From assembly GCF_003597395.2 (NCBI RefSeq), contig NC_133770.1, positions 208,004,452 to 208,068,451 of the forward strand: DNA of 64,000 nucleotides, read 5' to 3'. This DNA comes from Chelonoidis abingdonii. Lineage: Eukaryota > Chordata > Testudines > Testudinidae. Positions 12,221 to 62,628 of the stretch are shown here, piece after piece (the stretch's first letter is position 1; each line of letters opens with the position of its first letter). The position numbers were made by a program, and so were the translations under genes. The notes below the pieces were generated by a model. It had not been told where the DNA came from, searched no databases, and saw nothing but the letters and a program-made list of their open reading frames with translations.

Positions 12221-12441
12221 GTTGTAGCCATGTTGGTCCCAGGATATTAGAGAGACGAGGTGGATGAGGTACTGTCTTTGATTGAACCAACTTCTCTTGG
12301 TGAGAGAGACAAGTTTTTGAGCCATATTGATCCCAGATCTGAAGAAGAGCTCCATGTGGTACAAAACCTTATCTCTCACCAACAGAAGTTGGTCCAATCA
12401 AAGATAATAACTTACCTACTTTGTCTCTCTAATATCCCAGC
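12221..12441. mobile_element. Hairpin of two Penelope-like element 3' ends
   Basis: The left arm has GTAGCCATGTTGGTCCCAGG, ATTAGAGAGAC and CCAACTTCTCTTGGTGAG. The right arm has the complements: CTCTCACCAACAGAAGTTGG, TTTGTCTCTCTAATATCCCA. The middle phrase CTGAAGAAGAGCTC is typical of PLE 3' regions in reptiles. The two arms therefore look like the same PLE 3' end in opposite orientation. A second example is at 46385-46557. Confidence 0.65.
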
Positions 12442-21345: not shown

Positions 21346-21370
21346 CTGCTAATAATGTGATAGTTTAGTA

Positions 21371-21612
21371 CAGAGATCAGCAAACTTTGGCACATAACCT
21401 ATCAGGGAAATTCGCTGGCAGGCCGGGACTGTTTGTTTACCTACAGTGTCTGCAGGTTCGGCCAATCGCAGCTCCCACTGGCCTCAGTTTGCTGTTCCAG
21501 ACCAATGAGGGCTGCGATCAGCTGAACCTGTGGACGCTGCAGGTAAACAAACCGTCCTAGCCTGCCAGCGGATTTCCCTGATGGGCCATGTGCCAAAGGT
21601 TGCTGATCCCTG
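21371..21612. mobile_element. hAT foldback MITE 1
   Basis: Terminal inverted repeats begin CAGAGATCAGCAAACTTTGG at the left and CAGGGATCAGCAACCTTTGG at the right (other strand). The flanking octamers GTTTAGTA (21363-21370) and TTTTAGTA (21613-21620) match at 7 of 8 positions, as expected for a hAT target duplication. The two halves are complementary over most of their length. It has no coding region. Confidence 0.85.
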
Positions 21613-21625
21613 TTTTAGTATATAC

Positions 21626-21952
21626 CAGGGGTCGGCAACCTCTGGCACATGGCTTGCCAGGGCAAGCCCCCTGGTGGGCCGGGCCAATTTGTTTATATGC
21701 CGCATCGGCAGGTTTGGCGGACTGCGACTCCCACTGGCCGTGGTCCCAGGCCAATGGGGGCGACGAGAAGCAGAGCGGGTGAGGGATGTGCTGGCCGCAG
21801 TTTCCTGCCACCCCCATTGGCCTGGGACGGCGAACTGCAGCCAGTGGGAGCCGCAATCAGCCAAACCTGCCGATGTGGTAGGTAAACAAATTGGTCCAGC
21901 CCGCCAGGGTAAGTACCCTGGCAAGCCACATGCCAGAGGTTGCCGACCCCTG
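21626..21952. mobile_element. hAT foldback MITE 2
   Basis: Termini CAGGGGTCGGCAACCTCTGG are near-perfect inverted repeats. The octamer GTATATAC is directly repeated at 21618-21625 and 21953-21960, an exact 8-bp hAT target duplication. The left and right halves are complementary around a GC-rich centre (about 21780-21790). It is related to MITE 1 but closer to a consensus, so probably younger. The open frames of up to 160 codons that cross this pair are artefacts of the palindrome. Confidence 0.92.
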
Positions 21953-21960
21953 GTATATAC

Positions 21961-22685
21961 TGTCAAAAGCAGAGATAGCTGCTAACCGTAAAATAACAGG
22001 ATAGCCTCTAACCATCTAAAGCTTCATCTACTTTTTCTGGACAAGAAAACCTGGGCCTGATCCTGAAAACCCCTATGTGAGTACTCTTCTTGTTTGCAAG
22101 TTTTCCCACTGAAATCAATTAGCTTTCAAATAATTCTGTTGCCACGTCTCAGATAAAGTTATTTGAGGAGGTTTTCCAGCTCCAGTAGGGATTTCTTTAT
22201 TAAAATGTCACATGTAAATGAATTAGTTCTTTAAAAAAATAAAAAAGCAGACACAGTAACCACATATCTTGATTTTAAAAAATACAAAAAGTTTTGAGAG
22301 AAATGATGCAGAAAACCAGTATAATTTGACATCATTCGGGAGTGTGAGTTTAGCATCTGACAAAGTAGTGTCTGTCTGAAAGTTACAGACATAAAGAGTT
22401 TGTAGGTCAGGAAAGATATGTTTAGAAGGGGTGGTCTTTAGAGAGATTTACTTTCTACATCCCCTTCCCAGTTTCCCCTGAGAATGAAAAGGAAAAAAGT
22501 CTGCCTCAGCATCACTTAAGCAGTTCTTGGCAGTGTAGGCCAAATTCTTATACAAGAATGTCTTTGGTACTGTTAAATCTCCAACCTGAGTACAGAATGA
22601 CATGAGAACTAATGAGAACAAGATGGTGGCAGTAATATTTGGCTGTTGATTCCAAATGAGTTTTCTTCCAAACAGATATTTACAG
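21961..22685. other. No gene seen
   Basis: GGGCCTGATCCTGAAAACCC near 22050 is a common foldback-repeat phrase; the partner arm is not clear. Nothing else is recognised. Confidence 0.4.
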
Positions 22686-24667: not shown

Positions 24668-26442
24668 CATAAGAACATACAAATGGCCATACTGCATCAG
24701 GCCAATGGTTCATCTAGCCCAGTATCAAGTTTTCCAACAGTGGCCAATGCCACGTGCTCCAGAAGGAATGAACAGAACAAGCAATCATCAAGTGGTCCAG
24801 CCTGTTGCCCACTTCCAGATTCTGGTGAACAGAGGCGAGGGACACCATCCCTACCATCCTGACTAATATCCATTAACAGACCTATCCTTCATGAATGTAT
24901 CTAGTTCTTTTTGAACCCTGTTATAATCTTGGCCCACACCATCCTCTGGCAAAAAGTTCTGCAGGTTGTGTGAAGAAATACTTCCTTTTGTTTGTTTTTG
25001 ATTAATTTAATTGGGTGACACCTAGTTCTTGTGTTATGAGGAGTAAATAACACTTCCTTATTTACTTTCTCCACACAAATCATGATTTTATAGACCTCTA
25101 TCATATCTCCCCTTAGCCATCTCTTTTCCAAGCTGAAAAGTCCCATTTTATTACTCTCCTTATATGGAAATCATTCCATACCCCTAATCATTTTGCTGTC
25201 CTTTTCTGAATCTTTTCCAGTTCCAGTATATCTTTTTTGAGATGGAGCGCCATATCTGATGCGAAGATATTCAAGATGTGGGTGTACCATGGCTTTTATA
25301 GCGGCAATATGATTTTTCTGTCTATTATCGTTCCCTTTTCTCAGTTATTTCCAACATTCTTTTGCTTTATTTTGACTGGCCACTACACATTGGTGGATGT
25401 TTTCAGAAAACCATCCACAAATGACTCTAAGTTCTTTCTTGATGGTTAAGCTGATTTAAGACCCTCATTTTTTTGGTAGTGATATTGTTTTCCAAGTGAT
25501 TTACTTTGCATTTATCAACATTGGATTTTAATCTGCATTTTGTTCGCAGTCACCAGTTTGTGAGATCTTTGTAGCTTTCCAGTCTGCCTGGGACTTAACT
25601 TCTGATAGTTTTTGTATCATCTGCAAATATGTAAACTTTCCTTTTTTCCTTTGTTTTTTTTAGAAAACCGGGGGGGGGCTTTTTTTTTTCCAGGTTTTAC
25701 AATTGTTGGACAGATCTTCCAGTTACCAGATCCTGATGGACCCCACTATTTGACCACCCCATCTCTCCATTCTGAAAACTGAAATTTATTTCTTACCTTG
25801 TTTCCTATCTTTTATAGACTATAGACGCATAGATGCGGAGGAACAAATGAATCATACTAGTCTGACCTCCTGCACAAAGCAGGCCACAGAACCCTACCCA
25901 TCCACTTCTATAAAAACCCCTAACCTATGTCCGAGTTATTGAAGTCTTCAAATTGTGGTTTGAAGACCTCAAGCAGAGAATCCACCAGCAAGTGACCCAT
26001 GCCTCATGCTGCAGGGGAAGGCGAAAAACCTCCAGAGCGTCAGCCAATCTGCCCTGGAGGAAAATTCCTTCCCGACCCCAAATATGGTAATCACCTAAAC
26101 CCTGAGCATGTGGGCAAGGCTCCCCAACCAGCACCCAGGAAAGAACTGGTTACTGATCCATGAGAGAACCTTCTCTCTTATCCTAGGAGAGCTTACTTTG
26201 CTTAAGAACTTTTGGTGAGGGACCTTGTCAAAGACTTTCTGAAAATCTAAATACACTGTATCCACTGGATCACTCTTGTCCACATGCTTGTTGACCCCCT
26301 CATAGAATTCTAGTAGATTGGTGAGGCATGATTTCCCTTTAAAAAAACGATGTTGACTCTTTCCTAACAAATTGTGTTAATCTATGTCTCTGATAATTCT
26401 GTTCTTTACTATAGTTTCAACCAATTTCCCTGTGCAGACCCT
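24668..26442 (-). mobile_element. CR1 LINE, antisense, interrupted by another CR1
   Basis: The 3' end starts at CATAAGAACATACAAATGGCC and runs through the ORF2 C-terminus (minus frame near 24901-25146: LFSLEKRWLRGDMIEVYKI) to the reverse transcriptase core. The minus frame at 26144-26370 encodes FKGKSCLTNLLEFYEGV and VYLDFQKVFDKVPH, the fingers/palm region. A stretch of the RT is missing near 25640-25740, where G- and T-runs occur. It is 5'-truncated at 26442 and interrupted at 25815-26143. Stops and frameshifts make it inactive. Confidence 0.88.
25815..26143 (-). mobile_element. Second CR1 subfamily nested in the first
   Basis: At 25815 the older CR1 is interrupted after CTATCTTTTA. The insert begins with the tail-like TAGACTATAGACGCATAG and continues GTCTGACCTCCTGCACAAAG, the same subfamily as 13839-15434. 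It carries GAAAATTCCTTCCCGACCCC and ends near 26143. The host CR1 resumes with AACTGGTTACTGATCC, its next expected bases. No obvious target duplication is visible. Confidence 0.82.
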
Positions 26443-33110: not shown

Positions 33111-34788
33111 GCAAGACCAGGAATTCTCCATGGAATAAGCCCCATAGTGTGAGTTAATGCTGCTCTCAGCACCATTAATTTATGGCGGGGGGTCCTCCTC
33201 ACCTACAGCTGTACAGCAATAAGGGGAGGTCATCAATAGCACCCTGGCTCCAGCAGACTTGTTGCCTTGGCAGCTTATGAAGGCGCTGAGTCTTGCGTGT
33301 TATGTAATCTCTTTGGCTCTCTTGACAGCTAATTGTTAGGGGCTGGAGGTGCTCGTGCAAGGGGGAAGCAGGAGCATGGGTCCACTGATCAGTAGGGGCA
33401 CAGAACTGCTCCGGGGCTGGGGTGGGGAGAGTGAACTGTTCTGGCCCTGGGCTGAGGCAGGAGATGACCGCTCCTCCAGTCCTGGGGTTGTGGGGGAGGG
33501 GAAGAGTGCCAGCTCCACTGACCCCAGGGCCGCCGTGGGGAGAACCAGGTCCTCCAGCACCGGAGTACACAGAGCCAGGTCCTCTGACCACAGAGGGAGA
33601 AGAAATTTTATTCCCGTGTACATCCCTGGGCTGGACCCTGGCTTGTTCTGAAGCCCATGGGTGTGGGATGGTACCAGTATTATCTTCCCTGCAGTGGGAA
33701 TTGTAAGCTGACACTCATGGAATTTCTTGTCCTCTACTTGTTTTTTTCTCCAAATCAAGGTGAACTTAGCCCTGACTGAGCAGTCCATTTTTCTTGATTG
33801 TTGTGATTCAGACAGTTCACTTTCTGTATTACATGGTGGAAAGTGGGGCTGCAAGTTAATAAACCTACCATTTAGCTCTGAAGGTAAGTTAAAAATGTGA
33901 CCTCTGGCATAACCTAAAGAGTCCGGCAATTTCCTCTTGTGCATTTGACCACATCGTAGAACTCTCAGAAAGTCTGGCATACACTAGTTAGTTATGCTCA
34001 GGAGACACTCAGGACTGGCTGTACTAACGTTCATTTATTGGGATAACTGGACAAGGGAATCTAAGCAGATTCTGCCTGCAAAATTCCCAGCCATTGGAAT
34101 TATTCCTTCATTTGCCCTCATATTTAAAAATCTCAAATCTCCCCTCCATTAAATGAATTGCCTTATAAATATTAATTAAATGTAGCTAAATACAGTAGAT
34201 GCAGACCTAACTAAAATTACTGTTACACTGGTTTTAAAAAAGATGGAACTGATTTTATGCAAATTTTTTTTATACTATTGTGCATACAATGGAAACAGAC
34301 ACAATGCATAATCACAGGGTTATTATTCATTCTTGCCTTGTAAATTTTCAAATCTATGGGCAAGTATCCAATCAGAAGGGAAAAAAATATTCAGCAATAG
34401 GCATGAGACTTTTGGCAACTGCTGTATAATCCGTTTGTTGATTTGTTTTTTTCTGAAAATGTAGTTTAGGTTTGCCTGAGCCTGAGATCTTTGAAATGAA
34501 TAATGTATTTTAACATGATTGCCAGAAAAAGAAACAAAGTAAAATGAAATCATTACATCAGGGACAGACTTATTGATGTGAACAGCTTCACCTTCAGAAC
34601 AATCAGGAAATGACACAACTACCCACTCCTAAAGTGTTTTTATTATAGCAGCTGTTGCCCCCTCCTCGCTATTAAACATAGGTCTTCCTGGTTTTTCTTT
34701 TACAGCTGTGCCCCAGAAGCTTTTACTTTTACTTTTGCACCATACAATGGATCAGACTAGCCTGAAAGGAGATCCACAGAACAGCATA
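33111..34788. other. GC-rich patch with the longest open frame; otherwise nothing recognised
   Basis: 33330-33620 is GC-rich. The rest (33990-34788) is AT-rich and shows no repeat or coding signal. Confidence 0.4.
33336..33980 (-). other. Uncharacterised 214-codon open frame
   Basis: This is the longest open frame in the window. The N-terminal half is ordinary in composition (MPDFLRVLRCGQMHKRKLP...). The C-terminal half, over the GC-rich patch, is rich in Pro, Ser and Leu with PSPTTPG and SLSPPQPRSSS. A second minus frame (33199-33714) overlaps it and is also open, which argues that GC-rich composition, not selection, keeps stops out. No domain, signal peptide or splice context is recognised. 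Probably non-coding. Confidence 0.15.
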
Positions 34789-36715
34789 AGAATATAAGAA
34801 TGGCCATACTGGGTCAGACCAAAGGTCCATCTAGCCCAGTATCCTGTCTTCCGACAGTGGCCAATGCCAGCTGCCCCAGAGAGAATGAACAGAACAGGTA
34901 ATCATTAAGTGATCCATCCCGTCGCCCATTCCCATTCTGGCAAACAGAGGCAAGGGCCACCATCCCGCTGTCCCTCCTGGCTAATAGCCATTGGTGGACC
35001 TATCCTACATGAATGTATCTAGGTTTTTTTGGAACTCTGTTATAGTCTTGGCCTTCATACCATCCTCTGGCAAGGAGTTCCACAGATTGACTGTGTGTTG
35101 TGTAAAAAAATACTTCCTTTTGTTTGTTTTAAACCTGCTGCCTATTAATTTCATTTGGTGGCCCTTAGTTCTTGTGTTAAGGGAAGAAGTAAATAACACT
35201 TCCTTATTTACTTTCTCCACACAAGTCATGATTTTATAGACCTTTAATATCCCCCCTTAGTCATCTCTTTTCAAAGCTGAAAAGTTCCAGTCTTAGTAAT
35301 CTCTCCTCATATGGCAGCCATTCCATACCCCTAATCATTTGTGTTGCCCTTTTCTAAACCTTTTCCAATTCCAATATATCTTTTTTGAGATGGGGCGACC
35401 AAATCTGCATGCAGTAGTCAAGATGTGATCATACCATGGATTTATATAGAGGCAATATGATATTTTCTGTCTTATCTTTCCCTTTCTTAATTATTTCCAA
35501 CATTCTGTTCACTTTTTTGACTGCCGCTGCACATTGAGTGGATGTTTTCAGAGAACCATCCACAATGACTCTAAGATCTTTCTTGATTGGTAACAGCTGA
35601 TTTAGACCCCATCATTTTATCTGTATAGTTGGGATTATGGTTTCCAATGTGTATTACTTTGCATTTATCAACATTGAATTTCATCTGCTATTTTGTTGCT
35701 CAGTCACCCAGTTTTGTGAGATCCTTTTGTAGCTCTTCGCAGTCTGCCTGGGACTTAACTATCTTGAGTAGTTTTGTATCATCTGCAAATTTTGCCACCT
35801 CACTGATTATCCTTTTTTCTAGATCATTTATGACTATACTGAACAGCACTGGTCCCAGTACAGATCCACTGTTTACCCCTTTTTCCACGTCATTTACAGG
35901 GCTGCCCAGAGGATTCAGGGGGCCTGGGGCAAGCAATTTAGGGGGCCCCTTCCATTAAAAAAAAGTTGCAATATTATAGAATACTGTATTCTCGTGGGGG
36001 GTCCTGCAGGGCCCGGGGCCTGGGGCAAATTGCCCCACTTGCCCTCCCCCCCCATGAAGCCCTGATCATTTATGAATATGTTAAATAGGACTGGGCACAG
36101 TATAGACCCTCAGGGGACACCACTATTAATCTCTCTCCATTCTGAAAACTGATAATTTATTCCTACCCTTTGTTTCCTGTCTTTTAACCAGTTACCAGTC
36201 CATGAGAGGACCTTCTTTCTTATCCTATGACAGCTTATTTTGCTTAAGAGCCTTTGGTGAGGGACCTTGTCAAAGGCTTTCTGAAAATCTAAATATACCG
36301 TATGCACTGGATCTCTCTTGTCCACATGCTTGTTGACTTCCTCAAAGAATTCTAGTAGATCGGTGATACATGATTTTCCTTTACAAAAACCGTGTTAACT
36401 TTTCCCCAACAAATTATGTTCCTCTATGTATCTGACAATTTTGTTCTTTACTAATGTTTCAACCAGTTTACCTGGTACTGAAGTCAAGCTTACCAGCCTG
36501 TAATTGCCGGGATCACCTCTGAAGCCCTTTTTAAAAATTGGCATCACATTAGCTATCCTCCAGTCATTTGGTACAGAAGCTGATTTAAATGAGAGGTTAC
36601 AGACTACACTTAGTAGTCTTGCAATTTCACATTTCAGTTTCTTCAGAACATCTGGTCCTGGAACATCTGGTCCTGGTGACATATTACTGTTTAGTTTATC
36701 AACAATCAGCACTGC
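34789..36715 (-). mobile_element. CR1 LINE, antisense, longest copy
   Basis: Starts with the 3' end (AAGAATATAAGAATGGCCAT) and runs to the RT fingers at 36715, so it is 5'-truncated. Minus-strand frames in order encode VPNDWRIANVMPIFKKG (36395-36712), DFQKAFDKVPHQRLLSKI (36110-36325), FADDTKLLKIVKSQ with the catalytic Asp pair (35700-35936), and [17 protein letters not shown] at the C-terminus (35005-35229). These are CR1 ORF2 motifs in the correct order. Stops, frameshifts, a MITE insertion at 35897 and a 66-base duplication make it inactive. Confidence 0.93.
35897..36064. mobile_element. Short hAT-like MITE inserted in CR1
   Basis: The insert starts CAGGGCTGCCCAGAGG and ends CATGAAGCCCTG, short inverted ends. 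The flanks GTCATTTA (35889-35896) and ATCATTTA (36065-36072) match at 7 of 8 positions. CR1 sequence continues across the insertion. The interior has GGGGCCTGGGGCAA and complementary TTGCCCCACTTGCCC. Confidence 0.75.
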
Positions 36716-38233: not shown

Positions 38234-38705
38234 GATTTTAGGGTCAAAAGGGACCATTAGATAATTGAGTCCAATTTCCTGTATAACACTGGCCAGAAAA
38301 CTTCATCGAGTTAACCCTGTAATAAGCCCAATCATTTATGTTTGGCCAAAGCGTATATTCCAGAAAAAGCATCTAGTCATGATCTAAAGACAACAAGTGA
38401 TGGAGAATCCATCACTTCCCATGGGAGTTTGCTCCAAAGTCTAATCACCCTCATTGTTAAAAAATTGTGCATTATTTCTAATTTGAATTTGTCTGGCTTT
38501 AACTTCCAGCCATTGGCTCTTGGGTCTTTGCTAGATTGAAGAGCCTTTTAAGTACCCAGTATTTTCTCCACATGTGGGTATTTATACACTGTAATCAGGT
38601 CACATTTCAGTCTTTTTGATACGCTGAACAGAATGAGCTCTTTACATCTCTCACTGTAAGGCATTTTGTCCAGCCCTTGAATTTATTTTGTGGCTCTTTT
38701 CATTT
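38234..38705 (-). mobile_element. Older CR1 LINE 3' fragment
   Basis: TTTTAGGGTCAAAAGGGACC is the antisense CR1 3' end. It is followed by GAGAATCCATCACTTCCCAT, AGTTTGCTCCAAAGTCTAAT, TAACTTCCAGCCATTGGCTC and TATACACTGTAATCAGGTCA, the ORF2 C-terminal and 3' region of another CR1 subfamily. It is more diverged than the 24.7- and 34.8-kb copies. Confidence 0.82.
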
Positions 38706-41087
38706 TTTGGTCACTTTATTTTTTGTGCAAACATGCTGAATCCTCTGCTTTAAGTGAAAAACAGAAGTCAACCACGATGAAAAACATAACATTTACATTC
38801 ACCCCTAAATTCATCTCAAAGTTTTTAATCTGTAAATTTCCTTATCTCTCTCTCTTAAATAGAAACACTTAGTCATCAGTGCATAGCTGTGTCCTTGTGC
38901 ATAAAATAATACAACTAGCCACAGATCTGTCCACAAGAACAATTTCTTTATACAATCAATGCTACCTATGTACATATCCCCATCCAGATTCTACTCCCAT
39001 GCCCACACAAAGTCAGGGGCTCAGTTGTTCTATACAATGTAATGTAAAGTATCTGACTAGTGTAAAGATTTCATAAAAATGCATTTGCACCCTTTTTGTG
39101 CCAGCAGCTAACTATAAGATGTTTTCTAGAAAGAAATCCAATTGGGGTTTGTTGAGAAGATACAATTTTTCAAAGTTTTGGTTTATTGCAGTTGAACATC
39201 CAGTATGCTTTCCTCCCATGAGTAACTATCTCAAGGAAAGCTATTTTGAAAAAAAATATTTTGCACTCCTCTTCAAGATCTGGGTTTTATGTATACTTTT
39301 CAACAAAAGCTTGCTGATGTCACCTGTACTTGTGAATCATCTGATGGCAGATAACAATGTGTTAATCATCTCCTTTATTGTGGAATACCATGATCAAAAT
39401 CTGTACTAGTGAAAAGGAAGACAATACTTGTACTGTATGGCACAATGGACAACTGTTAATATAACAACATGAGGGGGGGGGTTAAATACAGGAATGCTGC
39501 CCTTCATTCCATTTTTATTTTTCACAAGAGACTAAAGAAATGTCTTTCATGTCTGTGTCTACAAGGTCCCAAGTATGATCATGACTGCCATCCACCCCAA
39601 GACATGGGAAGGGGCTGTTATCAGTTAAACACGATCATTTGAGTCACTGCATTGGGACTATTTGGTATATGCCTTTGCTGGGGACAATGGACAGAAGGTA
39701 AGCATGTACTTAAAGTCAGTACGGTTTGGTGGATTGGGCAGGAGTATCACCTCCTGGTGCAGTGAGGCATTTTAAGACTGAAAAGATATAAAACATGGTG
39801 ATCCTTTATTGTGGAATAGTGTGATCAAAAGTTGTGCTAGTGAAAAGGAAGATAATTCTTGTACCATATGGCATAAATTATAGGTATCATTCTAGAAGCC
39901 CTCAGTTTCTTGTGCTTTGGGATCTATAAATTGGTAACTCAGTACTATGAGTCAGATTACCATAAAAAAATATAAACATTCCTTTATTAAAAATATCATA
40001 AAAGTCTGTTGCAATTTTACATCCTGTCTGAAAGTCTTACTTCTATATGGGGCCCAATCCTGATCTTATGAAGCCAATGGGAGACTTTCCACTGTCCTCA
40101 AAGGGAGCAGAAGCAGGCCCATAATGTTCAGGCCCAGATATAGAACACACTGTAACTGAATGAAAGCATGTCTTTGTTGCCACACACTTTCAAAATTTGG
40201 CTTCATTGCAGACACATAAAAGCAGGAGATAAAGCTGTCAAAGCACAATTTAATGTGGAATTATTTTAACAGTCTGGTTTTCTTTACATTAGTATATAAT
40301 TATGTTTCAGTTAAATGCTACTTTAAGATTCATTTTCTTAAACCACAAGAATAATGCTTTTAACCTTCCACATTAACCACAAGTGCTGTTGTAAAGAGCT
40401 GTGACACAATGTGCTTCCCCGGCTGCATACAGTTTTTTATTTATGTTGAAAACTTTACTATACCAAATCAGACAAATTTAGAATTAATGTTTTTATTAAG
40501 CCTGTACTTTGGTTTGATTTGTGTTTCTGTCCTGGGGCCAGTGGCCCTACAGGAAGGATTGGGCCTAAATGGCCTATGAGGACCCTATGAGGAATACCTG
40601 GGAGCAGTGAGGTGCTTCCAGGTGTTGCCCTTTTAGTACATCAGAAATGGAGCAGCTGAGGCAGAAGGAGACTGCTAAAATAGTATAAAGAGGAAGTTGC
40701 CTGGGGAGGATGAAGCCCTGTGGTTGTTGAAGGCTGGAGGAGCTTGCAGGAAGTAGAAGATGTCTTTGTGAGGACAAGAACTGCATGAGGGCTAAAAGGT
40801 CACAGTAGGATTGCCAAGAAAAGTGTCAGAGTCCCTGGGGAAGGGAGACAGTGGGGGGTACATGTCAGTAAATTCCAGGAAGAGAGCTGGTCTGCCTGTA
40901 GATCAGAGAGACCTACAGATTGAGCCAGGCTCCTGGGAAGGGAAGAGGAAGATGAAGAGTGTGCTGTCAAAGAGAAAGATACACATACAACTTATAGAGG
41001 GAGCAATATAACTAAGAGGTTAGCTCTCTAGGGACTAATAGCGGAACAAGAGACTGAAGCCCGGCATGGATGCTGGTGGACAGCTAA
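38706..41087. other. No gene seen; a direct repeat and a foldback
   Basis: Contains the direct repeat 39371-39442 / 39802-39873, a G-run at 39472-39480, and a small foldback at about 40051-40123 (GGGGCCCAATCCTGATC ... AGCAGAAGCAGGCCC). 40520-41060 is G/A-rich, with a TATAAAG-like box at about 40683, but no element was identified. Confidence 0.4.
39371..39873 (+). repeat. 72-base direct repeat pair, 431 bases apart
   Basis: 39371-39442 and 39802-39873 share TCCTTTATTGTGGAATA, TGATCAAAA, CTAGTGAAAAGGAAGA and TATGGCA at matching spacing, with roughly 80-85% identity. The intervening DNA differs. It may be an old local duplication or two ends of a lost element. Confidence 0.65.
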
Positions 41088-44000
41088 CAGGCTGGCCTTA
41101 CCATGAGGTGAACTGAGGCGGCCGCCTCAGGTGCCAGACTGGTGGGGGGGAAGGCACCACTAGGACCCAGAGTGTAGAAAATTGTGTCTGCTGCTGGTGC
41201 ATATGTATTCTCTGTGCTCTAGATGCACAGAGATGGAGTGCTGTGCTGGATGAAGGAGGGCACAAGAGATATAACAGGCAGGCAGAAGAAAAGGTGAGAG
41301 GGAGTAACAGAAAGCAGCAGGAGCTGCAGGGAGAGAGAGGAGTAGGAGCCTCTTATGTACCTCTCTAGCACCCCCAGGGTTGCTAATTAACACCAGCTTC
41401 TCAGGGAGCTTCTTGTTTCCTGCTGCTTCCCTGAACCCATTTGAGGAGAACAAGCCGTCAACTTAAGTAGTAGGAGCCAGTTAGTCCTTTAAGATGCTGA
41501 TATCTTCCCTCACTCAGGCCCTGCTACCAGCCAGCTAATTTGTCCCCTTCAACTGAATGTTGAGAAACACTATAGCTGGCACAGAACAGCAGTAATAAGT
41601 GAAAGAAGAAAACGCCCCTCTGGGGCAGCATTCAGAAAAAGCAAGCAAGCAAAGGAAGCTTTTCTATCTAAGCAGGAAGGAGGTCTCCTGAGATACATAG
41701 ACACAAATGTTCACCATGAGCCTTCCAGCCCCAGCGAGGATGTGAGTGGTGAGGAGGTGCCTGATCTTCCAGTTAGTCAGAGTGCAGGTGATCTGGCAGC
41801 TACTGCAGCATCCATATCTCCATCTCAAATCAATGTAACCATGCACATTCCTGAAGAAAAGTGTAGATCAGAGAAGAGAGTGGTGGAGGCACAAGAAACA
41901 GCTGCTGCTGGTTTTCGTCCTGAAGTCTAGATGATCCAGGATTTGGACCACACTGAGCAGTAGTCAGAGGGACTTCCTTGTACGGCATGGGCCATAGCAA
42001 TGAAAATTCATTGTTCCCCAAAGACAATGAAAATAGAAGTTTCCATCCAACACATTACTGGTGTGAAATCCCTATGGTGACAAAGTGTAGAGGCCATGGT
42101 TATGTACTAAAAACCCAGAATGCTGCATACTTTTTTGTTGCAACTCTTCCACATTGGGTTCTGCAGGAACAAAGACTGGAATCTGGCTAAAAATCTGGGC
42201 ATGCCATGAGAAGGCAGCAATCACCAGAAAGCATTCCATAGGTGGAAGAGCTTGAGATGGAGACTAAAGTTAAAGGCCCAGATGATCAGCATCAGAGAAG
42301 ATTGCATCAGTTGCTTTACTGGCAAAATGTTTTGAAAAGGCTCTTGCCATTGTGAGAATGCTTGCTACCCAAAACTAGCACTGTTGTGGCACTTCAGATC
42401 AGCTGTAGGTGCCAACAATGGAACTTCCTTGAAACTGTGGAAACTGATGTTTGAGTTTGATGCTGTACTCCAGGAGCATCTAAGAAGAGTCACCACTCAA
42501 GAAATGTCACACCACCACTACATTGGAAAAACAATTCAAAAGAGATCATACAGTTACTGGCAACCAAAATTCAAACAGAAAGATTGTGTGGCAGATCTGA
42601 AGTCAGCAAGATATTACTCTGTTATTCTGGACTGCATACCTGACATCAGCCATACTGAACAAATGACTTTAATGGTGCATTTTATAACAACAACAGAACT
42701 TAGTGAAAATGTCCCTGCAATGGGGATTGTCAGAGGGCATTTTCTAGAATTTATTGACACTGATGATAGTACAGGAGCTGATATGACAAATGTGCTTCTT
42801 AAAAAGCTGGAAGATACGGGAACTGAGATAGCTGACATGAGAAGTCAGGGCTACGATAATGGTGCCAACATGAGAGGAAAGAACACAAGTGCAGAAATGG
42901 ATCTCAGAGTTAAATCCTTGAGCTTTTTTTGTCCCATCCAGTTCTCATTCATTGAACTTGGTGGTCAGTGGTGCAGCATCAGATTCTAGTGAGGATGCTG
43001 AATTTTTTAATGGAATTCAAAGCATCTATGTATTTTTCTCTGCATCAACTCATCAATGGCAAAATTGAAGCAACATCTGGGAACATCCTCTCTGACACTG
43101 AAACTACTGAGTGCCACACGATGGGAAAGATGAGTGGAGGTGATAAAGCCTATCAAACACCAAATCGGGAAGATAGATGATGCCATAGCTGCCATTATGG
43201 GGGATAATGCTATCACAGGAACTGTTCGAGGGAGAACAGTGGCAGAGGGAATGGAATCAACAGAAACATAAATAACTTCAAATTTCTGTGTGGCTTAGTG
43301 CTGTGGCATTACATACTGTTTGAAATAAATGTTGTAAGCAAGAGACTTCAAGGTGTTGACCTTGATATGTCTGGAGCAATGGAACAACTAGACAAAGCAA
43401 AGTCATACCTAAAGTCTTACCAGTCAGACGAAGGATTTCAAAACGTTCTGAAGAGTGCACAGAAGTTGGCAGAGAAACTTCACACTGAAGCTATTTCCCC
43501 ACCCATTCAAGAATACATGAGTCACTGAAGAAGAAGACAACATTTTGATTACAAGGCACAGGATAATCCTTAAGAGACTCCAAACAACAATTCAAAGTTG
43601 AATTCTTTAACCAGGTGCTAGATTGTGCAATACAGTCATTTGAAGAACATTTCATGCAGCTCAAGGAACACAGCAGTATATTTGGGATGTTGTATTACAT
43701 TCCAAAACTCCTCAGTATACCTGAAGACCTACACCAGCAATGCAGGGCTCTAGAAACAGTGACACATGATGACATGCACGATATTGATGCGAGTGATTTA
43801 GGTGATGAACTGAAAGCCCTTTCAAGATACATTTCAGCAGGATCAACTCCAAAGGCTGTTCTGGAATATAGGGGCAGAAAAGATGACCACCCTCTTTCAG
43901 AATGCTTTTGTTGCTCTGAGCATACTTCCTGTAACAGTTGCCAGTGGAGAATGCAGCTTCTTCAAGCTGAAGTTAATAAAAATACATCTATGCTCCATAA

Positions 44001-44230
44001 TGACACAGGAGAGGCTGGTCGGCCTTGCAACCATCTCAACAGAGCATGAGCTGGCCCAGACTGTGGACCTCCAGGAAGCAGTTCAAATCTTTGCACAGAA
44101 AGCACCACTTTGATTATTCAAACAGATAAAAATGCCAGTGTTTACTATACAGAGAAGAAATGTTACATTTGCTGTTCAGGCGTTTGAAAGTTAAATGTTA
44201 CTTAAAATTTTTGAACAAGGCATTTTAAGT
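41088..44230 (+). mobile_element. Decayed autonomous hAT transposon
   Basis: The left end CAGGCTGGCCTTACCATGAG is a hAT-like terminus. It is followed by a subterminal 18-base palindrome CTGAGGCGGCCGCCTCAG (41113-41130). A leader of about 600 bases precedes a broken transposase gene at 41690-44113. A right terminus with the matching inverted repeat and an 8-bp target duplication were not found near 44230, so the 3' end appears lost or diverged. Confidence 0.72.
41690..44113 (+). pseudogene. hAT transposase pseudogene (ZMYM1-like / DUF4371 family)
   Basis: Frames in order: an acidic Ser-rich leader (41742-41930), a TTF-type zinc-finger region (41978-42190, with SLFPKDNENRSFHPTHYW), then the DUF4371/RNase H-like core (42384-42989, with AVLQEHLRRVTTQ, YYSVILDCIPDISHTEQMT and DMRSQGYDNGANMRGK, where the aspartates sit as in the family). 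A middle helical insertion follows (43298-43528), and the C-terminal dimerisation region ends in PVTVASGECSFFKLKLIK (43883-44113). At least four stops or frameshifts separate these parts, so no active enzyme is made. The Asp-rich core is still readable, implying moderate age. Confidence 0.85.
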
Positions 44231-53479: not shown

Positions 53480-54090
53480 ATAGGTTAAATGTCATGGTCC
53501 ATGCCCCTAGGGTCAGGGAAGCATGGCCTAATGGCCAGAGTCTAGAAAGTTGGGGCACCCAAAAAGGGGTGTGGCAATCCCAGTAAGGGGGCCCAGGCCC
53601 ACCTGACTCCTCTGGGCCCTGACCCAGGGCCCCAACAGTGGCATAGCAGCTTGCCACTGACTCAGTGGGGGAGGGGGAGTTTCCCACCAAAACACACTGA
53701 GGTTTCCCAGACAGGAGGTACCACTCCATCACCCTCCCTGGGTCACTTCCTACCATAGACTGCATTGGTATTTCTCATGCAATGTCAGGTTCTCTGTGTT
53801 CAGTGGGGCTGGTCACCTCTGGGGGCTCCTCCAATCACTTGGCTGAGGGCAGGGGATGAAAGGCTTTGATTCCCAGTATAGTCAGTGGCGCCGGCTCCAG
53901 CTCCGGCTCTGCAGGCACTTCCCAGGCAGGTCCTTCCCCTGCACCCTCCAGCCCAGAATGAGCTGAGCTCCCTCCCTTTATACTGCTAGAGTATTTGAAG
54001 CATGCCCAGTCTCGCCAGGAAGGACTTTCTCTGTCCATAATATGGGCTTAAGCCTGTCCAGGCTAGTGCGAGGTAAACAGACTCCGTCAC
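53480..54090 (-). repeat. GC-rich TATA repeat, possible third copy
   Basis: On the minus strand a TATAAAGG box (53975-53982) is followed by GC-rich sequence and then GGGGCCCTGGGTCAGGGCCC (within 53611-53635), comparable to the block in the 8-kb and 28-kb elements. The minisatellite part is not evident, so membership is tentative. Confidence 0.4.
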
Positions 54091-54195
54091 ACCATGTAAA
54101 AGGGATAAAGATAGAAATGAACACAAGTAAATAAAAGTGAAAACACATTTAAAAGACTGAAATTTAATCTAGCAAGATAGTCTTCGTTTACGATG

Positions 54196-54284
54196 TAAAA
54201 GTAGCAAAAAGTCCTGTGGCACCTTATAGACTAACAGATGTATAGGAGCATGAGCTTTCGTGGGTGAATACCCACTTCATCAGA
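54196..54284 (-). mobile_element. Penelope-like element 3' end with target duplication
   Basis: The minus strand reads as the PLE 3' end: CCCACGAAAGCTCATGCTCC, GTTAGTCTATAAGGTGCCAC, AGGACTTTTTGCTAC. It is flanked by 15-base direct repeats TCTTCGTTTACGATG (54181-54195) and TCTTTGTTTAAGATG (54285-54299) with two mismatches. It is therefore a complete, severely 5'-truncated insertion. Confidence 0.85.
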
Positions 54285-54299
54285 TCTTTGTTTAAGATG

Positions 54300-55689
54300 G
54301 TTTCTCTCACCCACAGACTCCTTTCCAGCTTTTACTGGTCAGGATCCATAACAGGGATAAATCACTTGGTTCCTTTGTCTTCTAAGGTGAAGGATAAGCC
54401 AGTGGTTCTTTGCCTGACTCTTTCATAGTCCTGTGAACATTTGAAAAGTATTCTTCTGAAAGGTTCCCCCAGATGAAGTTTTAGTTCATGCTGAGAAAGG
54501 GAGCCATGAGGTCTGGATGATAAGGCTCCATGCTGGTTCCTCCCCTGATGGTGATTGTTACAATGCAAATTGATCTCTTCCTGCAATCTCTGATATACAA
54601 ATGAATAACCAACTAACTATGATTGCACCTGGATGGAGGCACAGGGCTGTCCTTTTTCTGGGAAAATACCTGTTTACCAATCCCAGATGTATTTGTTGGA
54701 ACACTTTTTAGCACCATTTTGTGGGTTTACTGTATATACATTATGCAATATTAATCAGTGTTACCAGTTTTACCTTACACAACACATATTGGACATAGAT
54801 GATAACAGTAGTGAGTTGGGGTACACTGAACCGGTTTGGTCAGCTGAAACTCACTTTCAGGTACCAGGCAGTCCCTTGCCATCTGGCATTGGGATGCTGT
54901 CAGGGTCACAGGGACGTCTGTGGTCAGATCTTGGAGGCACAATCAGGGCCTATGTTTGCACTTGTCTGATATTTTCCAGCAGCCCCAACAGGGTGGTGGA
55001 CTAGGGTGATAACTAGGAGAGTTGGAGTGTGTGTGAGTGAGAGGTACTAGGGATGGGTGGATGAATGTCTCTGTTTATGTATGTATATATATAAAAGTTA
55101 CCTTTTAATCATGCACACATAAAATCCATTAGGTTAACAAACATTGGACAAATTTCTTATTTAGCAGAGACTCATTCTGTACTTTTTGTTTTAGTTGACT
55201 TCATGCGCTGCATTTAGAATGTCTCTAGGCAAGAATAACTGTTTTCAGAAAGCCATAATTGAGCAGGTCCAATAACGTGTGTACTAGTGCCATTTCAACT
55301 TGACTGAAAAAGTTAAAGAAATGCCATTCGTGGCTAATATAAGCGGATATATTTTCTCTTTGCATCCAGAGTTTGATGGTGTATGGATTATTGACTGTTT
55401 AAACTCTATTATAGTTCTGGAGAAAGTATAAAAATGTAAAAGTCCTCTTAAAAATGAGCCAAGTATTGGAGTATACACAGCAAACAACCAATCTGTTGTT
55501 GAATCTGAAGAAAATGCTAAATGTTCTTTCATTTTGCTACATTTAGTAACATTTCCAGGACTCATAGAAATGTCTACTATTCTATGAAGAGAATTGAAGT
55601 TCAGTGTAAAATGTGACTTATTTGCACAGACTTCTTCCTTGATTTCTATAGGGGAAGGGCCATGCTAATTCTTTTTTTATTTTTTATAC
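54300..55689. other. No gene seen
   Basis: Open frames up to 123 codons (54633-55004) have no motif. A TA-rich tract lies at 55078-55095. No repeat ends were recognised. Confidence 0.4.
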
Positions 55690-55705
55690 ACAGTGTAAAA
55701 TAAGT

Positions 55706-57480
55706 ATCAGAAGGGTAGCCATGTTAGTCTGAATCTGTAAAAGCAGCAGAGAATCCTGTGGCACCTTATAGACTAACAGACATTTTGGACACTTAACTAT
55801 ATTTTCGAACGTCTTGGAGCGTAAGCGTTTCGTCGGTGGGAGTGCTTGATACCCAACCTTGTCGTCAGACCGCAGGTAGTGGAAATTTCCAGGGGTCGGT
55901 ATATATATTGCTACCAAGCAAGCAAGCTAGGAGATAACGAGGTTTAGTTCAATCAGAGGAGGAATGGGGGCCGCATGGTCTGGCGAAGGCAGTAAGAGGT
56001 GTGCACAAAAAATAACCAAGGGAGGGAGAAATCTGGTTCTGTAACTGGCAAGCCATTCACAGTCTTTGTTTAGTCCCAGAGCTCGGATATGGTAGTCAAA
56101 TTTTGCAAGAACTTGAACCACATGAAGCCATCAAGCAGTTTCCTCTATTGCAGTCGTCTTGCACGTTTTTTATTTGGGGCTGCAGGGACTGGGCGGCCAC
56201 CTTAAAGCGGTCTGGGCCTATTAGTGTGCCAGGGATGGGCGAGCTTAGTGGCAGAGGACGGCTGGGCATGTGAGGGAGGGGGGGGGTGAGGGAGGGAGAG
56301 AGCTAGGGTCAGGCGTGTGCGCTGGGGTAGGGGCGTGGCGGTATGGTGAGCCGGAAAGGAAGGAGGCAGCGACGGTGTGGGTGCAGAGATCATAGCCTGC
56401 GCGGGCGTGATACCGGCGGGAGGAGAGAACGTGCGTGTGAAGTGCTCTTCTAACTACAGGTTTTGTGCAAAAAAAAAAAAAACGTATTCAGCCATTCCTG
56501 ATATCCTGATTTGCTGTGCCATTTAATCGCTTTTCCGTAGTGATCGTGTCGCAGTATTTGGCGATGTACAATACGCAGAGGGGCATTTGCTATGGCATAT
56601 AATGTCGGCGTATATTACATACACCAACACACAAACAAGACAGATCCATACACATAAACAACAAATTACAGACGGACTCAGAACATAATACATTCAGTGG
56701 ATCGTGCAGGTGAATGAACCAGTGATGGTGTGGCTGATCTGGGTTAGGTCCGAGGTGTGATGGTGTCAAGCTGGTGGTAAAAGATATGTGGGCAGAAGTT
56801 GCACATCGGACAGGGTTTGTTGCATGGGATTGGTTCCTGAGGTAAGTTACTATCATAGTATGGATGTTGCAGTTGCTGGTGAAGAATACGTTTCAGGTTG
56901 GCGGCGTTGCCCTGTAGGGCAAAGGGATTTTGGGCCTGCCACCTCCATGTTCCAGTGAGACTCTTGTGAAAGTGTGAGAGCATTGGTCCAGGATGGGGTT
57001 GTAGATCCCTGATGATGCATTGGAGGCAGTGTTTAGCTGCGGGCCTGAATATGTGATGGCCAGTGGTAGTCCTGTTGGTTTCTTTCTTGGGTTTTGTCCT
57101 TGTAGTAAGGAGGCTTCTGGGTACAACGTCCTTCTGGGTACACGGGTGCCCATAGCAGTGCCCACGGATCTGGAGATATATATTGTCAGTCAAACTTGAA
57201 ATAGTTGTGGGGGTGCAGTATAAAGGCACAGAGCTCAGCAGCCAGTTGTGGCTGTGGCTATCAATCAGGCAATACTGTTCTGACAGCTTGTATTCATCGT
57301 GTGTGGGACTGTTTGTGTAGAGAGGCCTCCTACATCCATTGTGGTGCTAGGATAGGTGTTTTCTGGAGGTGACCAATGCATTGTAAGTTTTCCTCCAGCA
57401 AATCAGTGGGCACGGAGATAGCTGGGAGTGCTGGTGGCATAGGGTCTTGAGCAGAGAGTCCCACATATCGCACACAGTCT
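55706..57480 (-). pseudogene. Antisense PLE arm
   Basis: Minus-strand order: start of the RT domain (about 57440-57230, with VLQCIGHLQKTP-like and frame-broken sequence), DNIYLQIRGHCYGH (about 57190-57145), a junction, then PRSLLTTRTKPKKETNRTTTG and LQCIIRDLQPHPGPMLSHFH (about 57120-56970). Next come RATPPT/NLKRILHQQ and PCNKPCPMCNF (about 56905-56790), and the start of the GIY-YIG region. A GC- and G-rich insertion (about 56225-56450) breaks the endonuclease end. Relative to the other arm, about 520 bases from the RT core to the linker are missing at 57143. Not functional. Confidence 0.8.
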
Positions 57481-57489
57481 GGACGTGTC

Positions 57490-59028
57490 AGTGACCCGCA
57501 TGGCCCCACAATACGCCATATTCTTTATGGCTGACCTGGAACAACGCTTCCTCAGCTCTCGTCCAACTCCGCCCCTTCTCTAACTACGCGAACATTGATG
57601 ACATCTTCATCATTCTTGGACCCATGGGAAGGAAACTCTAGAAAAATTCCACCAATGATTTCAACTAACTTCCACCACCACCCACCATCAACCTCCAGCC
57701 CTCGGACCCATACTACACAGGAGATCCACTTTCTAGACACCCACGGTGCAAAATACAGTGATGGTCACATTAATACCACTCTATATCGACAACGCTACCG
57801 ACTGGCTACTGCCTACCTTCATGGCCTCCAGCTTCCATCCGGGCACATCACACGATCCAATCTGTCTAGCAGCCAAGCACTGAGGTACAAACGCATCTGC
57901 TCTAAAACCCTCTAGATCAAGACCCAATCACCTACAAAATTCTCCACCAACGCAAATTCGTCAAAAGTACAATACCCGCACGAGGAATTAGGAAAACAGA
58001 TCAACAGAGCCAGACGTTACCCAGAACGACTGCCTACTACACGTCCCGTTGCTGGCGAGCAGTGCCGCTTCATCCGAACCAGACAAACCCAGAAAGAAAC
58101 CAATCAGGACTCCCCACTGGGGCCCATCTCCAACAATAAAAAACAACAAAAGCCCCCAACGCTAAAACCCTCTCCAACGCATCATCAGGGATCTAGCAAA
58201 CCCATCCTGGACAATGATCCCACACTTTTACAGGATCTTGCGGAGGCAGGCCAATCCATTGTGCCCACAGACAACCTGGCACAAACCTGAAACGTACTTC
58301 TTCAACAGCACTGACTGCAGCACCAATACCATAGTAACTCTAGCTCAGGAACCAATGCCATGCAACAAACCTCGATCCAACTCTGCCACATATCTACACC
58401 AGCGACACCATCACAGGACCTAACCAGATCAGCCCATTCACCATCACTGGTTCATTTCACCTGCCACGGTCCACTGCAATGTAATATACGCCATCATATG
58501 CCAGCAATGCCCCTCTGCTATGTACATCGGCCAAACTGGGACAGTCACTACGGAAAAGGATAAATGGACACAAATCAGATATCAGGAATGGCAATATACA
58601 AAACCTGTAGGGAGAGCACTTCAACTGCCTCCTGGCCACACTTATAGGCAGACCTTTTAAGGTGGCCATCCTGCAGCAAAAAAAACTCAGGACCAGACTG
58701 TTTTCAAAGAGAAACTGCTGAGCTTCAGTTCATTTGCAAATTTGACACCATTCAGCTCTGGACTAAACAAAGACTGTGAATGGCTTCCAATTACAGAACA
58801 CAGTTTTCCTCCCTCTGCGTTTTCACACCTCTACTCTAGAACAGGGCCTCGTCCATCCTCCCTGATTGAACTAACCTCGTTATCTCTAGCTTGCTTGCTA
58901 GCATATATATACCTACCCCTGGAAATTTCCACTACCTGCGTCTGACGAAGTGGGTATTCACCCACGAAAGCTCACACTCCAAAATGTCTGTTAGTCTATA
59001 AGGTGCCACAGGATTCTCTGCTGCTTTT
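57490..59028 (+). pseudogene. Sense PLE arm with RT core and GIY-YIG domain
   Basis: Plus-strand order: MAPQYA-like and LTWNNASSALV (57500-57570), the RT catalytic box NIDDIFIILG (57588-57620), QEIHFLDTHGAKYSDGHINTTLYRQ (about 57718-57790) and the thumb. A linker follows, then the GIY-YIG core with IYAIICQQCPSAMYIGQTG in disrupted frames (58480-58545). RKRINGHKSDIRNGN (58550-58600) and KVAILQQKKLRTRL (about 58660-58705) lead to the 3' untranslated end. Stops and frameshifts are numerous. The usual Tyr before the Asp pair is replaced by Ile, with Asn before it. The last ~35 bases of the 3' end are absent compared with the other arm. Confidence 0.85.
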
Positions 59029-59044
59029 ACAGTGTAAAATAAGT

Positions 59045-62000
59045 GAAAGAATGAAAATCTTTCCTTTACTTTTTTCTTAAATGAATCTGTTTTACTAAAA
59101 ACCTAATAAATTGGGTGAGTCTGGAAGAATTCTGTCAAACCATGTAATTAAAATGTTTTATTTACCTTCTTCTCTGTGACCAGAATTATAGAAAGCCCAA
59201 AAGGAGGAGAACTGGAATGTAAAGCAATATTGTGTTAATGACCCTTCTTGTACAGACAAAGGAAGTGTCTGTGAGAGAGGGCAGAGGGAATGCTGGAGAA
59301 CATTGCATTTCCTTACAGTAACTTATGCAATATTTTACATCTGTTCTGTAGAAACCCACACTCTGGCAAGACACTGTTAGCACCATTAATCATCCCTGCA
59401 CTTGGTATCTCAGCCCCAGTGGGTCACTGGTGAGCTTTTAATATCTTAGGGAAGTGCAGAATCCGGGTCTTGCATTCACTGCTTTGTCCATTTCCCTGGG
59501 GATATTATCTGTCATGGGATTTCCCAGTGAATGGCTGCAGGCTGTATTATATTGTTACATGTGTTTTGACACCATAAGTGATCTTAACAGCTTTTCCAGG
59601 TGGTGCAGAAATAATGCCTGGCTTTCTTGTGTTTGTAGCCATCTGAATATGTGGAAAATAGGCAAACTGGGTCAGAAAAAAAAAATCACCTCTCAAAGTT
59701 TCACTTGGCTTTTAGAACCATGTTTGTGAAGGTTCTGAAATGTACAATTAACTAGTTATCTTCTCATTCATTTTCTTTTCCCTCCATTTGTGTCCTCTCA
59801 AGCTTCAGGCCAGGAGTGGGCTGGAACTAGAAGAGCTGTACTATCACTAGAAGAAGTTACTGTAGTTCTGGCCCAGATTGGAGCAGTTAGTACTGGACTC
59901 TCTTGAGAGAGTCTTTTCTTTTGAGACTTCAACTCAATTGTACAGACACAAGTTGTTCAGGTAGCTTGGAGTTTTGGGCATGTATCCAAACTGAACCCAA
60001 ACACGCAGCCCTTTGAAGTTTGCCTTCTTTAACAGTGGATCAAAATGCCCCTGAACTTCACACAGATCTTGATCCATATCCATATTTTGCAGTTGTTGCT
60101 CATTTCTAGCTACAACAGAACAGCAGCTTTATCCAGAAGAGAAGAAGTGGGCTGGAAGTTTCACAAGAATAGACTCAGATGCTACCTACATCCTCAGCAG
60201 AAGAGATCAACTTATTTATTATTAAGTGTGAGCAGATAAAATACCATCTAGCTGTGTTGGCAAGAGGATAATAAGGATGTGCTCAGGCTCAAGAAGCTCT
60301 AGCAGCAGTATATTGCAAAACTAAAAGACAGTTAACACAACTACACAGACTGGGCTCATTTTAAAATAAAAATCTTCAGAGCTGTTTCAGTGTATGGTGC
60401 TTGTGGAAGAGAGTAGAGGAAGAAGGTGAGGTGTGCATGTGCGGGGAAGCATTTTAATGGAGTCTCTCCTTTCTTTTGGCATTCAGATTACATCTGCCAT
60501 AGGATAGGTCCCAAAAAATTTGACCTTGTTGCTGGCATGTAAATAGGTTGAAATGAGGCATGGAGCAACTCTGCTTGAAGTCAGCTTTTCAGAAGGAAAA
60601 GTGAACAAAGAGCAACTGCAATGAATAATAACTCTGAAGGAAACATCAAAAAGTTGAAAGCCAGCTGCCATAAACATCCATTTACAGGAAATGGCAGGTT
60701 CTTAAAAATATCAGGAACAGTCCTCTAAGGGAGGAAAACCATTTTCCATCTTACAATTATTAGTGATGCGAAGGCTAAATTGTCTTACCTCTGATATTTA
60801 CTAGCTGTTCTCTGGGTCGGAAATTGTTGCAAGCATATAAATGTAACTTTTCTACTATAACATGGAATTTTTCACCTATGATATGAGTGTGGCTGATATT
60901 ATAAGGCTGCAGATCATGTTAGCAGCTTTCATGACATATTAAAAGAACTAATCTCTACTTGGCAAAAGCTGTACCAAGCTGTTTGCCTGAAGTTTAGTAT
61001 TGCCTTAAACCTCCTAATCAAATCTACATTTGTCCCATAGGCTGCCATCAGTACACCCGCTGGGTATAGATTGTGGCATTTAGCTACAGCAGTAAGTAGG
61101 GCTGGCCTGTAGAGTTGGATCACTTTGACAGGAGCTAGAATTGTGCCCCAAGAATAGAGCTATGCCTCAACTGTGCCTCAAGAATACAACTGTGTGAATA
61201 ATTGGCTACTTGAGGTGGGGGGTTGGTGGCTGTCCAAAAGTTAAAAAATGTTTTGGGTCAACCAAAAACTTTTTTTTTTTCAATTTTTCTGTGAACTGAA
61301 AAAGCTGAAATATTTTTGTTCCTGGTGAAACAATGTTTCATTTCATTTGCATTTTTTTACCTTTTTAATGTAAACAAAATATAATTGAAGTAAATTTTGA
61401 AACATTGTGTTTAAAATTTTTTGGACTTTTTTTTTGTTACCTAAACCATTTGGTGAATTGTACACAAATTCACTAAATGTTTCAGTTGACCTGAATATGC
61501 ATTTTTTGGCAAAAATTTTTTTGCCTAACTCAATTCAGGAAACACAATCCTTCTTGCAGTTTTCATGTGTGCTTGGGAGAGCACATCCCACAGGATGAAA
61601 TGGCGTGCTTCTTAAAAGATGTGCCCAGATTGACAGGCTAATGCAGGGCCTCCATAGATACACAAAGGGAGTTCAACTTTGTCTGGTGCCTCTGCTATCT
61701 TCCAAAACACCGGAGCTATGGCCATGGATTTTCCCTTAGAAAATAGTTCCTCCTGTTGGATTTCTGAAGAATGGACTCAAGCCCTGGGAATGCTGCATAT
61801 GACTGTGGAACGTGCATATTTACTACATGTACATTAGGATTTACAAGTTCTACTACTGTTACTTGAATTTGAAAGTCTGTGTTTCACTAAATGTGTTAGT
61901 GCATGCATGGCAGAAACATGAAGTAAACATCAAAAGGAATTCATTTGCAGTTTTAAAAAATGCTTTAAAAATATTTAAGTAAGAGATTTGCATTAAGCCC

Positions 62001-62083
62001 AGGATGGATACTCCGGAATTGTGGTTATAAAACTGTTCAATCAGACATAATTTGTATATTATTAGATGTTTAGATACAAGAAG
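59045..62083. other. Repeat-poor DNA with one T-rich foldback remnant
   Basis: 61235-61530 has AAAATGTTTTGGGTCAACC, GTTTCATTTCATTTGCATTT and TTTGAAACATTGTG phrases of the T-rich foldback family; its ends are not resolved. Elsewhere, no gene or transposon was recognised. Confidence 0.4.
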
Positions 62084-62628
62084 TAATTCTTCCGCTCTAT
62101 TCTGTACTGATTAAGCCTCAACTGGAGTATTGTGTCCATTTCTGGGCACCACGTTTCAGGAAAGATGTGGACAAATTGGAGAAAGTCCAGAGAAGAGCAA
62201 CAAAAATGATTAAAGGTCTAGAAAACATGACCTATGAAGGAAGACTGAAAAAGTTCGGTTTGTTTAGTCTGGAGAACAGAAGACTGAAAGGGGACATGAT
62301 AACAGTTTTCAAGTACATAAAAGGTTACAAGGAGGAGGAAGAAAAATTGTTCTTAACTTCTGAGGATAGGACAAGAAGCAATGGGCTTAAATTGCAGCAA
62401 GGGTGGTTTAGGTTGGACATTAGGGAAAACTTCCTGTCAGAGTGGTTAAGCACTGGAATAAATTGTCTAGGGAGGTTATGGAATCTTCATCATTGGAGAT
62501 TTTTAAGAGCAGGTTGGACAAACACCTGTCAAGGATGTTCTAGATAATACTTAGTCCTGCCTTGAGTGCAGGGGACTGGACTAGATAACCTCTCAAGATC
62601 CCTTCCAGGTCTATGATTCTATGATTAT
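62084..62628 (+). mobile_element. CR1 LINE 3' end with terminal repeats
   Basis: Plus-strand frame from about 62110 encodes PQLEYCVHFWAP, DKLEKVQRRATKMIKG, GRLKKFGLFSLENRRLKGDM and KLQQGWFRLDIRENF, the conserved C-terminus of CR1 ORF2. It then frameshifts and continues into the 3' untranslated region (GACTAGATAACCTCTCAAGA, TCCCTTCCAGGTCTATG). The end is ATTCTATGATTATT, the CR1-type terminal short repeat. It is 5'-truncated. This copy is among the better preserved. Confidence 0.93.

Follow-up and report, generated by a model that had tools for sequence, protein, structure and literature searches.

In a 64,000-nucleotide stretch of Chelonoidis abingdonii DNA (here called the window), we identified two Penelope-like element (PLE) arms that stand head to head, with their 3′ ends outward, inside one short target duplication. 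Their origin as one composite insertion, made by dual priming at a staggered break together with a template jump or a twin-priming-like step, is the explanation we favor with moderate confidence. The duplication, the outward 3′ ends, a tail on one side only and three interior pieces in the order L, M, and R are present in the given sequence, as summarized in Table 1.

Table 1. Features of the composite PLE insertion and their positions in the window
Feature	Coordinates	Strand	Evidence and remarks
Left target-site duplication	55690-55705		Exact match to 59029-59044; 16 letters, true duplication 13-16 bp
Tail at 3′ tip of left copy	55706-55734	-	Tip comparison; 29 nt; right copy without tail
L, antisense PLE piece	55706-57124	-	Frameshift-aware alignment, tblastn; covers residues 469-715 of P0001 and the 3′ untranslated end
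L/M junction zone	57114-57142		12-nt word present twice (57114-57125 and 57131-57142)
M, antisense PLE piece	57139-57492	-	Frameshift-aware alignment, residues 195-307; tblastn, residues 209-307
R, sense PLE piece	57494-59028	+	Frameshift-aware alignment, tblastn; residues 305/306-715 plus tailless 3′ end
Right target-site duplication	59029-59044		Exact match to 55690-55705; first 3-4 letters may be element
Insertion-rich noise stretch, probably long-read gap fill	55790-58862 (approximate)		Inferred

To identify the element, reading-frame segments of M and R were typed out as a protein query. This query matched 126 proteins with E values up to 0.001, the best of which was P0001 from Gopherus flavomarginatus (715 residues, E = 1.8e-131), and the best 12 of the 126 were all named as turtle proteins. 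Many of the matched proteins carry precomputed PF00078 and PF26215 assignments, and from this domain make-up, together with general knowledge of the group, we take them to be PLE proteins. The pieces were thus found to be homologous to PLE reverse transcriptase proteins. Over in-frame residues, R was 86.0% identical to P0001 and 86.3% identical to P0004, a protein of C. abingdonii itself, these being the best values among seven proteins tested of the 120 matches listed. While these two tortoise proteins were the closest to R among the seven, the copies in the window are fragments with many frameshifts. P0004 is devoid of the M region, and M was compared with P0001, P0004 being of no use for this piece.

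Profile searches were also conducted. Pfam yielded no relevant family for 10 raw open reading frame pieces (no match for 8, and matches only below the cut-off for 2), and it recognized no reverse transcriptase family in the typed pieces. The typed R pieces gave a weak match to PF01541 (GIY-YIG; E = 0.006), which at 17.3 bits did not reach the cut-off of 22.6 and came after a match to TAF8_C that is likely to be due to chance; the relatives P0003 and P0009 carry PF01541, and R aligns to the ends of both. A PDB sequence search returned a single match, at chance level (E = 0.37). Rfam reported nothing in 54000-60000 up to E = 1, including the hammerhead ribozyme, which a truncated copy need not contain; the tip of R does show a CTGACGA...GAAA-like word, and we take it to be the hammerhead core. 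An exact 24-mer of the PLE tip occurred in none of the viral contigs and in none of the prokaryote genome contigs, the tRNA gene search found no gene, and no tandem repeat was detected in the element. Elsewhere in the window, long imperfect palindromes at 12242-12437 and 21358-21976 are perhaps remnants of DNA transposons, and three open reading frames at 41493-44049 (145, 217, and 160 aa) read, by our presumption, like a putative transposase-derived gene of the hAT type.

The flanks had been described in a preliminary description as a single 16-bp target duplication. When both strands of the window were searched, the word ACAGTGTAAAATAAGT was found exactly at the two borders and at no other position, and the single pair therefore holds; the true length of the duplication, however, is 13-16 bp rather than a fixed 16, because the letters ACA or ACAG at the right border are also the element's own tailless end, which lies at 59031 or 59032 if they are counted as element. 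The tips of the two arms form a perfect inverted repeat (55/55 nt, 55735-55789 and 58978-59032), the outer 4 nt of which are, on the right, also the first four of the duplication, and the right tip passes directly into the duplication at ...TTTTACAG. The left tip carries 29 extra nucleotides between this repeat and the duplication, which the right tip lacks, and this extra stretch of about 29 nt matches the known PLE tail, reported to be 31 bp or 30-40 bp long (PMC3846280, PMC11167929).

A second PLE copy of 91 bp lies 1.4 kb from the composite at 54194-54284 (54181-54297 with its flanks), in the minus sense, tailless and 5′-truncated. It ends with ...CTTTTACA, and its flanks, TCTTCGTTTACGA and TCTTTGTTTAAGA, form a 13-bp duplication with 11/13 identical positions. 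The same end in this copy indicated that, in terminating without a tail on the right, the composite uses an end found elsewhere in the PLE family. It also leaves 3-4 letters of the "16-bp" duplication assignable to element or target, and with ACA as the element's end each of the two PLE insertions would have a 13-bp duplication.

The two outward 3′ ends of the composite were taken as real, since the tips look clean and are each flanked by the same 13-16 bp word. Short duplication, inverted copies and optional tail are all present at the locus and are all published features, and the outer form is thus ordinary for PLEs; the layout had already appeared in PMC3846280, in line with the preliminary statement that inverted structures are known for these elements. 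A history of two separate insertions, with a later element landing in or next to an earlier one, would be conceivable in that a secondary insertion of one PLE into another has been described (Pen2a in Pen3; PMC3846280) and the window holds another PLE close by. Nevertheless, a single duplication brackets both arms, the tips are identical over 55 nt, and the inner junctions coincide with none of seven direct-repeat families (repeats of at least 14 nt), all of which makes such a history very improbable.

Inside the duplication, pieces were assigned by frameshift-aware alignment of the window DNA to P0001, with which tblastn agreed for the main blocks of L, M, and R. The coding part of L runs on the minus strand from 57124 to 55957 and that of R on the plus strand from 57494 to 58862. 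Alignment of the arms with each other and with turtle PLE proteins, as had been proposed, bore out that both arms are PLE and that they face each other with outward 3′ ends, as does the 55-nt repeat at their tips; it also revealed that the differences between them are mainly indels and that the left arm is not one piece. The sequence at 55706-57480, originally regarded as one 5′-truncated copy, is in fact L, with residues 469-715 and the 3′ end, joined to M, with residues 195-307. Of the two different 5′ truncations that had been claimed, the corresponding points can be found at residue 469 in L and 305/306 in R, but they are not clean, and M lies between them.

L and R overlap over residues 469-715, and hence the 3′ end of the PLE was copied twice, either from two RNA molecules or repeatedly from one; the noise obscures the variants that would tell these apart. 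M, on the other hand, ends at residue 307, while R starts at residue 305, or at 306 with the DNA cut at 57495, such that the template is continuous from M to R within noise of a few codons. The chance of such an agreement is 7 in about 520 residues, by a rough estimate made after the fact. Since M stops where R begins, it resembles an inverted 5′ portion of the template of the right arm, and the continuity at 305-307 points to this template as the source of part of the "left arm". The inner junctions are plausible but provisional; they lie in noise, are placed to within a few codons and are taken from the assembly.

Plain dual priming on a deleted template could produce the same order of pieces with no jump, L and M coming from an RNA without residues 308-468 and R from an RNA truncated at 305. 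L and M are indeed adjacent and in the same orientation, the repeated 12-nt word at their junction is what slippage or a small-repeat deletion might leave, and microhomology-mediated internal deletions are known in the PLEs of Adineta vaga (PMC3846280). This scheme nonetheless makes it a coincidence that M stops within about 3 codons of where R begins, and we consider it unlikely. The head-to-head repeat could alternatively have been made by self-priming on an antisense PLE transcript, the A. vaga model proposed for head-to-head PLEs (PMC3846280). That model rests on junction palindromes, and none was found at the join, where a very short one could hide in the noise; the probability of self-priming here is close to negligible.

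Priming from both target strands most simply accounts for one insertion in one duplication. An element 3′ end is found at both target ends, in opposite orientation and inside one duplication, and to produce this geometry, both ends should have had 3′ overhangs of 13-16 nt that were extended with PLE RNA as the template. In the favored sequence of events, a PLE nuclease would cut the two strands 13-16 bp apart, generating a staggered break with 3′ overhangs, and from each overhang cDNA synthesis would be primed close to the 3′ end of a PLE RNA. A distal start would be used by the left overhang, leaving the tail on that side, and a proximal, tailless start by the right one. The left cDNA (L) would extend to residue ~469 and then continue on the right-hand template from ~307 to ~195, yielding M; the right cDNA (R) would stop at ~305, and the two cDNAs would be joined head to head. 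The movement of the left cDNA to the right-hand template at ~307 may have been either a twin-priming-like step or a switch onto the end of a broken RNA. Classical twin priming does not fit, because L separates M from the left duplication, and the inverted piece is therefore not at the target end. A point against the favored explanation is the length of the duplication, which exceeds the 8-10 bp reported for A. vaga. In a relay version, a cDNA from one target end, after its own RNA has been copied, would prime in, or jump to, the RNA of the other end; we offer this as a tentative possibility, and, if true, it would mean that dual and twin priming were combined in one event by a GIY-YIG retroelement. 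Among the open-licence papers listed, no title or abstract opening dealt with this locus or with a PLE combining both steps. The putative inner detail at M and R is interesting.

The sequence quality of the interior was evaluated from its indels, with M cut to avoid running into R. The pieces were 77-87% identical to P0001, and among the 686 in-frame codons of R, M, and L, 572 were identical and 1 was a stop. Against this background we counted 122 indel events, of which 110 were insertions and 12 were deletions (47 to 7 in R, 14 to 4 in M, and 49 to 1 in L), giving an insertion excess with binomial P values of 2.3e-8 for R and 9e-14 for L. The frameshift aligner does not favor insertions, since equal rates simulated on an open reading frame of the window were recovered as 275 insertions and 266 deletions in 40 runs. 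Long inserts in the protein alignment measured 74, 47, and 158 nt in L and 39 and 21 nt in R. Two long inserts in L that are absent from R lie at 56245-56450 and 56615-56690, one with 50% G on the plus strand and one with 51% A and 8% G. The base composition of the long inserts revealed no origin, and the G-rich skew was matched by stretches elsewhere in the window.

At the DNA level, three L/R alignments contained 89 gap openings and 71 mismatches (ratios of 1.12-1.50), versus 174 and 1268 in 24 alignments of other window repeats with at least 60 columns, a difference with a Fisher P of 4e-34 when overlapping pairs are counted. These controls included overlapping and self-palindromic pairs, and their highest ratios were 0.50 (90 columns) and 0.38 (1050 columns). 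The latter ratio, the highest among long control pairs, belongs to 24668-25655 and 34785-35818, possibly another stretch of lower sequence quality. As a control for decay, the open reading frame at 62074-62547 (plus strand), which we take to be CR1-like, was aligned by the same program with old copies at 35101-35467 and 38397-38720 (both minus strand), and these showed identities of 39% and 48%, respectively, with 3 stops and 2 indel events in the first copy and 2 stops, 5 indel events and two skipped residues in the second. At the control ratio, the 54 indel events of R would imply about 394 substitutions, a number that is excluded because R is 86% identical and has no stop in 371-372 codons. 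Raw PacBio errors are rich in insertions, and natural indels lean to deletions. The interior indels, being insertion-rich without matching substitutions or stops, thus look like raw long-read noise rather than decay or age. Dating from the divergence of the arms was rejected, as their differences are mostly indels.

The outer 84 nt of L (to 55789) matched R without gaps wherever the two overlapped. In the L/R profile no extra base appeared on the R side from the 58850 bin on, nor in the 58700 and 58750 bins, while indels in the protein alignment persisted to about 58862. Clean tips of about read length around a noisy middle are expected of short-read contigs with long-read fill, from which we infer that the stretch between these limits is probably a gap filled with uncorrected long-read sequence. 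Just past the clean left tip, at 55780-55822, ACATTTTGGA is followed by unrelated letters and then by ACGTCTTGGAG, such that, by eye, the sequence seems to start over; this could reflect imprecise joining of the gap fill. In a later Galapagos tortoise assembly, gaps were filled with PacBio reads at 0.5x, with Racon correction (PMC12032190); this and a snapping-turtle assembly are precedents for gap filling only, and corrected reads are mentioned for both.

An interior resembling raw-read noise raises the possibility that a fold-back (missed-adapter) read or a false repeat bridge made the inner junctions or one arm. Missed adapters can yield palindromic reads (PMC6218980), and gap closers can overfill or misjoin (PMC8848313, PMC6324547). 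Yet a fold-back needs a symmetric turn, M and R hold different residues, and both outer tips look clean, each next to the same 13-16 bp word; we judge an artefact of assembly or sequencing to be distinctly unlikely. As a whole explanation, a fold-back read was rejected, no inverted similarity being found within 57140-57840. The composite insertion by dual priming with a template step remains our preferred reading. The locus had been presented as a readable record of such an event, which is justified as far as one duplication encloses both arms, but the interior is almost wholly noisy. Its main import as it stands is a warning: repeat interiors in assemblies can consist of raw-read fill, and arm divergence in such fill must be used neither to date an insertion nor to prove that two templates were involved.

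Among known systems, the locus may be set beside the EN-containing Penelopes of A. vaga (Pen2a_Av and others), which likewise have inverted copies with outward 3′ ends, one short duplication and an optional tail, the last being about 31 bp on one inverted end (PMC3846280). In the cases described there, the duplications are 8-10 bp, in contrast to 13-16 bp here. Those cases mostly pair an inverted pLTR with a longer element and have palindromes where the two meet, whereas here two pieces of ~1.2-1.5 kb occur with an inverted inner piece, and a search of the join revealed no palindrome. Dual priming has been proposed for L1 (PMC2837659), where two 3′ overhangs are primed and inverted pieces lie in one duplication, as at this locus; L1 is, however, an element of another class, and its twin priming joins the inverted piece to the target end, while here L is in between. 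For PAc, the Poseidon element of Anolis carolinensis, both target strands are cut and extended in vitro, and the tail is the stretch between two adjacent reverse-transcription starts (PMC11167929), which explains tailed and tailless ends such as those seen here. The PAc starts were mapped in vitro on the RNA, whereas ours are deduced from the two element ends. If accurate reads confirm the interior, the tortoise insertion would be a natural counterpart of the PAc reaction, with both strands extended, two starts and a tail on one end, and it would point to the other strand's template as a possible source of the inverted part in such insertions.
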